Below, one piece after another: positions 34,313-36,336 of a stretch of DNA of 39,525 nt. The notes beneath the pieces are model-generated. The model searched no databases and was not told the origin of the DNA. It was given only the letters and a program-made list of their open reading frames with translations. This stretch comes from Clostridiales bacterium 38_11 (lineage in GTDB: Bacteria; Bacillota; Clostridia; Tissierellales; Dethiosulfatibacteraceae), in NCBI GenBank assembly GCA_001509345.1, contig LGGM01000006.1:1-39525 (forward strand), written 5' to 3'. Made by a program: the position numbers and the translations under genes. The stretch's first letter is position 1; every line of letters starts with the position of its first letter.

Positions 34313-35314
34313 ATGAGAATATTAGTGGATGCAATGGGCGGAGACAATGCACCTGTTGAAATAATTAAGGGTTCCATTCTGGCAGCGAGAGAGTATGGCG
34401 TCAAGATCACGCTTGTCGGTAAGGAAATTGAAATCAAAAAGTATTTGAACACAGATAATGAAACGCTGGCTAAATTGAATATAATCAACGCGGAAGATGT
34501 CATAACCAATGATGACAAACCGGTTAAAGCTATCAGATCAAAAAAAGAATCTTCATTGGTCAAGGCCATGAACGCATTGAGAGATGGACATGGAGACGCT
34601 TTGGTTTCAGCGGGGAGCACAGGAGCACTCCTAAGTGGTGGTTTATTTATCGTAGGTCGGATTAAAGGGATTGAAAGGCCTTGTCTTGCACCACTATTCC
34701 CAAATGGAGACCGATTCAGTCTCTTGATGGATGCAGGAGCCAATGTTGACTGCAAGCCGTTGTTTTTGTCTCAGTTTGCTTTGATGGGGAAAGTATACAT
34801 GGAAAAAGTGTTAGATATACAAAATCCCAAGATCGCACTGATCAACATCGGGACGGAACAGGGAAAGGGAAATAAACTAGTTATTGATACCTATGACTTA
34901 CTGAACAAGATGGATCTTAACTTTATCGGAAGCGTGGAAGCAAGAGATATCTTGAGAAATGAAACGGATATTCTGTTGTGTGATGGTTTTGTTGGGAATG
35001 TGGTATTGAAGCTGACAGAGGGGGTCATGTCAGAACTAATAGCACAGATCAAAGGCGAATTGCTCAAGACAACAAAGGGAAAACTCGGTGGCTTATTGAT
35101 TCAGGATTCAGTTAGACAGCTAAATAAGAGATTTGATTATTCAGAACATGGCGGAGCTCCTTTGCTTGGTCTGAAAAGTCCAATAATAAAAGCCCATGGC
35201 AGTTCCAATGATGTTGCGATCAAAAATGCCATCAGGCAATCCAAGCTTTTTATTGACAATAAGGTCAATGAAATGATAATAGAACAATTGGAAATGGGAG
35301 GTGGAATAAGTTGA
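34313..35314 (+). CDS. plsX: Phosphate acyltransferase PlsX
   Basis: Converts acyl-ACP and phosphate to acyl-phosphate, the donor for PlsY (414-992). The 333-residue protein has RILVDAMGGDNAP, VSAGSTGALLSGG, GANVDCKP, INIGTEQGKGN, CDGFVGNVVLKLTEG and GGAPLLGLKSP. AGAGGTGTT precedes the ATG. It is directly coupled to acpP, its acyl carrier, with a one-base overlap. The fapR and fab genes that accompany plsX in Bacillus are not here. Confidence 0.97.
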   Translation: MRILVDAMGGDNAPVEIIKGSILAAREYGVKITLVGKEIEIKKYLNTDNETLAKLNIINAEDVITNDDKPVKAIRSKKESSLVKAMNALRDGHGDALVSAGSTGALLSGGLFIVGRIKGIERPCLAPLFPNGDRFSLLMDAGANVDCKPLFLSQFALMGKVYMEKVLDIQNPKIALINIGTEQGKGNKLVIDTYDLLNKMDLNFIGSVEARDILRNETDILLCDGFVGNVVLKLTEGVMSELIAQIKGELLKTTKGKLGGLLIQDSVRQLNKRFDYSEHGGAPLLGLKSPIIKAHGSSNDVAIKNAIRQSKLFIDNKVNEMIIEQLEMGGGIS

Positions 35315-35553
35315 TGTTTGAAAAAATCAGGGCATTAATAATCAATAGATTGAATCTGGATGAAGATACGGTCATAACAATGGATACATCCTTTGCCGAT
35401 GATCTTGAAGCGGATTCAATAGCGCTTGTTGAGCTGATTATGGGAATTGAAGATGAATATGGAATTGAAATTGATGATGAAAATGCGGAAAAATTAAAAA
35501 CTGTCAGAGATGCAATCCAGTATCTCGAAAATGTTATCGATCAAAAGTCCTGA
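35314..35553 (+). CDS. acpP: Acyl carrier protein
   Basis: Small acidic carrier (79 residues) for fatty acyl chains. The phosphopantetheine-attachment serine is S35 in LEADSIALVEL, where the usual DSL reads DSI. The overall acidic helical pattern (MGIEDEYGIEI) is typical. I chose ATG 35314 over the adjacent TTG 35311; GGGAGGTGG in the end of plsX serves as ribosome binding site. The stop codon lies within the terminator stem. Confidence 0.95.
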   Translation: MFEKIRALIINRLNLDEDTVITMDTSFADDLEADSIALVELIMGIEDEYGIEIDDENAEKLKTVRDAIQYLENVIDQKS

Positions 35554-35571
35554 TTTTCAGGACTTTTATTA
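35543..35571 (+). terminator. Terminator of plsX-acpP
   Basis: AAAAGTCCTGA (35543-35553) and TCAGGACTTTT (35557-35567) form a perfect 11-bp stem with loop TTT. The right arm ends in TTTT and is followed by ATTAAA. The acpP TGA is the end of the left arm. Transcription of rnc then depends on read-through or an unseen promoter. Confidence 0.75.
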
Positions 35572-35623
35572 AATAATCAATGATTAGTGATTAGCATTGT
35601 TTGATCATTAATCATTGATTATT
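35572..35623 (+). repeat. Long inverted repeat in the rnc leader
   Basis: AATAATCAATGATTA (35572-35586) and TAATCATTGATTATT (35609-35623) are perfect inverted copies. Pairing continues inward for 8 more base pairs, three of them G-T, giving a 23-bp stem with a 6-base loop (35595-35600). The right arm ends directly before GGGAGG, the rnc ribosome binding site. The left arm contains a tandem TGATTAG. Being AT-rich with no T tract, it does not look like a terminator. It is either an RNase III substrate in the rnc leader or a copy of a dispersed intergenic repeat. Confidence 0.85.
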
Positions 35624-35634
35624 GGGAGGTTGAA

Positions 35635-36336
35635 ATGGAGATTGATGTAAATCAATTTGAAAAAGTTTTAGGTTATGAATTTACTAATAAGGACCTTCTA
35701 AAAGAGGCACTGACACACAGCTCGTTTTCAAACGAGAACGGACAACAGATCAGGAACAATGAAAGAATGGAATTTTTGGGTGATGCGGTACTTGAAATCA
35801 TGGTAAGCCATTATCTTTACAAACGATTCAACACCTACCCGGAAGGCAAGCTGACACGACTAAGGTCAAAGGTGGTTTGTGAGGATGTTTTATATTCGAT
35901 TTCAATGCAATATAGACTCGGTGATTTTTTGGTCCTTGGAAAGGGAGAAGAACATACCGGGGGGAGAAATCGAAAATCAATACTGGCTGATTGTTTAGAA
36001 GCTTTAATTGCATCTGTTTATCTCGATAGTGGATTTGAAAATGTTGAGGCACTATTTTTGCCAAAATTTCAAGAATTCATTGAGAGAGCTGCAACAGGTA
36101 AGATCCGCCTTGATTTTAAAACAAGATTTCAGGAGGTTATTCAAAAAGATCATCCCAATAGCAAAATTAGGTATCAGGTTTATAGGGAAGAAGGCCCTGA
36201 TCATGACAAAACTTTTTATGTCAGACTATTTTTAGATCAGAATAGAGTGGGCAATGGCGAGGGAAAGAGCAAAAAATCAGCAGAACAAGAAGCGGCGAGA
36301 GAAGCGCTTGTTACAATGGGATACATAAATGCCTGA
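35635..36336 (+). CDS. rnc: Ribonuclease III
   Basis: Double-strand-specific endoribonuclease that processes rRNA precursors and regulates mRNAs. The 233-residue protein has the signature NERMEFLGDAVLE (42-54), TRLRSKVVC, the second catalytic patch ADCLEALIASVYLD, and a C-terminal double-stranded RNA-binding domain (about 158-228) ending in KKSAEQEAAREAL. GGGAGG at 35624-35629 is flush against the long leader hairpin. It overlaps the radical SAM gene by 8 bases. Confidence 0.97.
   Translation: MEIDVNQFEKVLGYEFTNKDLLKEALTHSSFSNENGQQIRNNERMEFLGDAVLEIMVSHYLYKRFNTYPEGKLTRLRSKVVCEDVLYSISMQYRLGDFLVLGKGEEHTGGRNRKSILADCLEALIASVYLDSGFENVEALFLPKFQEFIERAATGKIRLDFKTRFQEVIQKDHPNSKIRYQVYREEGPDHDKTFYVRLFLDQNRVGNGEGKSKKSAEQEAAREALVTMGYINA

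Follow-up and report, generated by a model that had tools for sequence, protein, structure and literature searches.

What does the long hairpin directly in front of the ribonuclease III gene (rnc) do? It lies in a stretch of 39,525 nt (the window) from a genome of 1.88 Mb in 156 contigs, where the gene order is ackA, an unnamed ORF, plsX, acpP, rnc and a radical SAM gene (Table 1). The rnc product was a full-length RNase III, scoring 255 bits against TIGR02191 with a cut-off of 166. No NCBIfam match was obtained for the ORF between ackA and plsX, which looks like the DUF177 gene often located there. We favor, with a probability of about 0.72, the reading that the hairpin is a leader element cut by RNase III and giving negative feedback on rnc, as in E. 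coli rncO, with an unrelated sequence.

The pairing was re-derived from the sequence and gave the same counts as the original prediction: 20 Watson-Crick and 3 G-T (G-U in RNA) pairs in a stem of 23 bp with a 6-base loop. The right arm stops at 35623 and the GGGAGG of rnc begins at 35624, confirming that the two abut, and the ATG stands 5 nt past GGGAGG, with a similar spacing in relatives. The predicted fold of positions 35560-35660 reached -34.5 kcal/mol compared with -15.9 ± 2.5 kcal/mol in shuffled sequences (z = -7.6), and a wider fold (35534-35650) gave z = -7.4 against its shuffles. When 39.5 kb were scanned for short-range inverted repeats (arms of at least 16 nt, at most 60 nt apart), this hairpin was the best in the window. 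At about two helical turns, the duplex was long enough for RNase III. A short helix was also predicted between the end of acpP (35535-35542) and the start of the rnc coding region (35640-35647), enclosing both the acpP stem and the rnc hairpin; it was predicted in G001 as well.

Table 1. Coordinates of the features in the window and of the promoter-like element in other genomes (genome:contig:positions)
Feature	Location	Strand	Remarks
acpP, acyl carrier protein	35311..35553	+	5' neighbour of rnc
acpP terminator-like stem	35543..35567	+	AAAAGTCCTGA-TTT-TCAGGACTTTT; separate, 4 nt 5' of the hairpin
rnc leader hairpin	35572..35623	+	23-bp stem, 6-nt loop (left arm 35572-35594, loop 35595-35600, right arm 35601-35623); proposed RNase III substrate
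Shine-Dalgarno GGGAGG of rnc	35624..35629	+	begins at the base right after the right arm
rnc, ribonuclease III, 233 aa	35635..36336	+	NCBIfam equivalog TIGR02191; ATG at 35635
Promoter-like element	G014:C13:848-877	+	
Promoter-like element	G031:C37:11107-11136	-	
Promoter-like element	G018:C3:82557-82586	-	
Promoter-like element	G048:C9:30959-30988	-	
Promoter-like element	G042:C1:153464-153493	+	
Promoter-like element	G017:C67:3027-3056	-	
Promoter-like element	G032:C43:88669-88698	+	
Promoter-like element	G053:C94:55780-55809	-	

The association of such hairpins with rnc was surveyed in rnc loci from 120 further genomes. ORFs were called by script, and the regions upstream of rnc and of all other genes were folded; hairpins were accepted with a stem of at least 19 bp, an energy of -13.5 kcal/mol or lower, a loop of at most 10 nt, no U-tract and a 3' end at most 50 nt from the start codon. 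As controls we used the remaining genes of these loci that had an upstream gap of at least 60 nt. Within the order of the window, accepted hairpins preceded rnc in 42 of 109 cases and other genes in 21 of 409 (P = 2.5e-17), or 42 of 92 and 15 of 330 without family f3 (P = 5e-20), and half or more of the members sampled passed in 11 of the 19 families (binomial 3e-10); these P-values are strong, inexact and optimistic, because the first 30 loci had been inspected before the criteria were fixed and still count in the test set, and because the genomes are related. Several of the control positives resembled folds of coding sequence or terminators. Stem lengths across the order clustered at 20-26 bp (median 23 bp), loops were mostly of 4 nt, and the 3' end was typically 11-22 nt 5' of the rnc start. 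The hairpin was absent or undetected in f3, f7, f13, f14 and many members of f4 and f6, showing that it is not universal within the order. Outside the order, where a usable rnc call was obtained in 47 of 60 loci of the class-level set, rnc leaders (9/47) were not significantly different from controls (18/158; P = 0.22). Two loci of another order (L261 and L262, in G202 and G250 of family f36) had stems of 23-25 bp placed 14-16 nt before the rnc start, with a sequence common to both, possibly an independent instance. Upstream of pnp in the window's family, no long hairpin was present in L303-L306 and L308, which had a short GC-rich terminator-like stem only; the count leaves out L302, L307 and L309.

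A promoter-like element was also found before rnc (Table 1). TTGCAT followed after exactly 15 nt by TAGTAAACTA was present in 18 examined loci of families f7, f8, f9, f10, f11, f12 and f18, and in the eight genomes tested TTGCAT-N15-TAGTAAACT occurred once per genome, at rnc, with invariant spacing. Its uniformity exceeds that of an ordinary promoter, and an unknown regulator may act on it. It was absent from the window's family. In f8, f9, f10, f12 and f18 the hairpin, where present, typically began 4-8 nt past the element; with TAAACT taken as the -10 box, this would put its first base close to where transcription is expected to begin. The element was present and a qualifying hairpin absent in f7 (L131, L138, L142 and L145) and f11 (L135), indicating that the two features are separable.

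Stems at the transcript start stabilize messages in Gram-positive mRNA decay, and the place of the stem in five families, at the point where transcription is expected to begin or close to it, is consistent with a structure that only guards the rnc message from 5' exonuclease or RNase Y, with no feedback through RNase III. However, a far shorter stem would suffice for such protection, and a general stabilizer should not be over-represented at rnc relative to genes of the same loci, as the long two-turn stems were, making this explanation unlikely. Just as improbable in our estimate is that RNase III cuts the stem for processing, separating acpP from rnc, or for activation, clearing the ribosome binding site, and not for negative feedback. 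The location between acpP and rnc, abutting the Shine-Dalgarno sequence, would suit both roles, and RNase III cleavage in the 5'UTR of S. aureus cspA raises expression (PMC3386247). However, where a family has a promoter-like element dedicated to rnc, the stem is retained immediately behind it, with no upstream cistron left to separate, and the Shine-Dalgarno sequence lies outside the stem in the window's family; both observations speak against this reading.

Retention of the hairpin before rnc in relatives despite changed letters suggests instead that RNase III probably limits its own production through cleavage of its mRNA. A hairpin of approximately 21-23 bp was found between the acpP terminator and rnc in 8/8 genomes of the window's family, with the 3' end 11-16 nt from the start codon in six members; in G003 and G006 it lay approximately 73 nt upstream, with another small structure between. 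The family alignment was built on sequence only, from a stretch itself selected as a hairpin, and had 92% of its cells paired and double (compensatory) changes at 8 of 23 pairs, a result reached by 0 of 500 shuffles; slid control alignments gave at most 58% paired cells and at most 2 double-change pairs. This covariation was not due to the choice of genomes, because all eight members were included, although repair of one arm against the other in a quasi-palindrome can look like compensatory change. The loop was not conserved. Compensatory changes in related rnc leaders and a genome-wide count of arm copies had been proposed as checks, and both outcomes favoured the proposed element: the stem showed such changes in relatives, the arm was unrepeated elsewhere in the genome, and the 75-nt element was present as a single copy in its own 1.88 Mb, the next match covering 26 nt at 88%. 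The covariance model R1, built from the window's family, found one site per genome, always before rnc, in 8/8 family genomes when at most 150 candidates were scored per genome; the second match in each genome was the same palindrome read on the opposite strand. An inverted repeat with short internal repetitions in its arms (e.g., GATTAGTGATTAG) could also be a mobile or repeated palindrome (REP- or MITE-like) or the DNA operator of a repressor. The single copy in each of the eight family genomes, always at rnc, argued against a dispersed palindromic repeat or mobile element, and a protein operator would not need pairing to be kept while the sequence changes, leaving this explanation very improbable.

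The acpP gene had a terminator-like stem of its own, as originally predicted; it overlaps the acpP stop codon, with AAAAGTCCTGA and TCAGGACTTTT as its arms, and was recurrent in the family. It was missed by the consensus scanner, probably because its U run is paired. The same scanner called no terminator at the rnc hairpin, which has no U-tract on its 3' side and is directly followed by GGGAGG. A transcription terminator or attenuator, which the position between genes might suggest, was thus disfavoured by the missing U-tract and the separate acpP terminator, and is the least credible reading, the sister-family stem following the promoter-like element at the rnc start. No convincing promoter was found in the window between the acpP stem and the hairpin, so that transcription of the hairpin here needs read-through from acpP or an unrecognised promoter. 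Its transcription as rnc leader in the window is presumed, and uncertain.

At least three sequence types that could not be aligned with each other were found among the rnc-leader hairpins of the order, the window's family being one. The second type (f8, f9, f10, f12, f16, f17 and f18) reads approximately GGATAATATTGTAGAT...TTTAAA....TTTAAA...ATCTACAATATTATC. Double changes occurred at 18 of 26 pairs in this type and at 11 of 29 pairs in the third (f19); the percentage of paired cells in both is biased, and double changes less so, because only hairpin-bearing members were selected. When 60 genomes of the order were searched with R2, a model built on the second type, most matches were rnc leaders. 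R2 did not detect the window's own hairpin, so homology between the types is not demonstrable. Matches with E < 1e-7 away from rnc were limited to G014:C39, G059:C2 and G064:C1. The first (L341) was a symmetrical palindrome at the end of an ORF. The other two (L331 and L332; G059:C2:418145-418196 and G064:C1:1497018-1497069) were one element in front of a non-rnc ORF, which we take to resemble phosphotriesterases, and this hairpin is a candidate for a further RNase III target.

E. coli RNase III binds a structure in the leader of its own mRNA and cuts it, so that the message decays rapidly; the enzyme can be titrated away by abundant substrates (PMC5371410). The E. coli leader had been cited correctly as a precedent for the present element; the Streptomyces leader cited beside it had not, the autoregulatory sites of S. 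aureus and Streptomyces rnc being described in the coding region (PMC3386247). E. coli rncO is likewise a hairpin in the rnc 5' leader, upstream of the ribosome binding site; the cut by its own product and the loss of message were shown there and are proposed here. However, the folded E. coli leader (L350) had a longer, interrupted stem approximately 30 nt from the start codon, whereas the present hairpin is an uninterrupted stem of about 23 bp closed by a small loop, abutting the Shine-Dalgarno sequence; it comes from a different phylum, and homology was undetected. RNase III of S. aureus and Streptomyces coelicolor lowers its own mRNA, the same outcome as proposed here, but from sites in the rnc coding region and not in the leader. 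The E. coli pnp leader is likewise a duplex cut by RNase III in the leader of an RNase gene (the cutting being proposed here) and differs by gene. RNase III of B. subtilis acts on intramolecular duplexes of 10-36 bp, its cuts showing the usual 2-nt spacing, and putative cleavage positions have been reported in the RNase III-encoding transcript (PMC11780869). No Rfam family matched the hairpin at the gathering score, and only chance-level matches were seen below it.

The stem of about two turns, the small loop, the site, the gene specificity and the retention of structure over sequence are as expected for a leader duplex that RNase III cleaves, and this fit, together with the E. coli, S. aureus and B. 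subtilis precedents, led us to choose negative feedback by cleavage. The rnc-specific enrichment, the compensatory changes and the single copy thus support the candidate autoregulatory element of the original prediction. The hairpin would act in cis as an RNA element, the near-perfect stem on the 5' side of the ribosome binding site being the substrate. The analysis establishes the structure, its covariation, its location and its link to rnc, and from these we infer cleavage by RNase III, the way the message decays and the direction of the feedback. When RNase III is occupied by rRNA precursors or other duplexes, the stem would remain intact and the 5' side of the message would be shielded. 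In the window genome, the stem would also part acpP from rnc in any read-through transcript, and in the sister families the rnc message probably starts with the stem.

No report of the same leader hairpin was found in a limited search of the open literature, which is weak evidence of novelty. Somewhat better than even, in our judgment, are the odds that these hairpins constitute an undescribed family of structures in rnc leaders, common across one order of Clostridia-like bacteria, that its members preserve leader-based RNase III autoregulation while the hairpin sequence is replaced or rapidly remodelled, and that several bacterial families pair the hairpin with a promoter-like element serving no other gene. 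Leader-based feedback of RNase III has been worked out in E. coli, and the Gram-positive cases described in the literature covered here use the coding region. If the reading of a cut, autoregulatory leader is true, the leader solution would recur in distant bacteria with unrelated sequences, and hairpins equal in shape and different in sequence would be natural substrates for probing how RNase III recognizes its targets.
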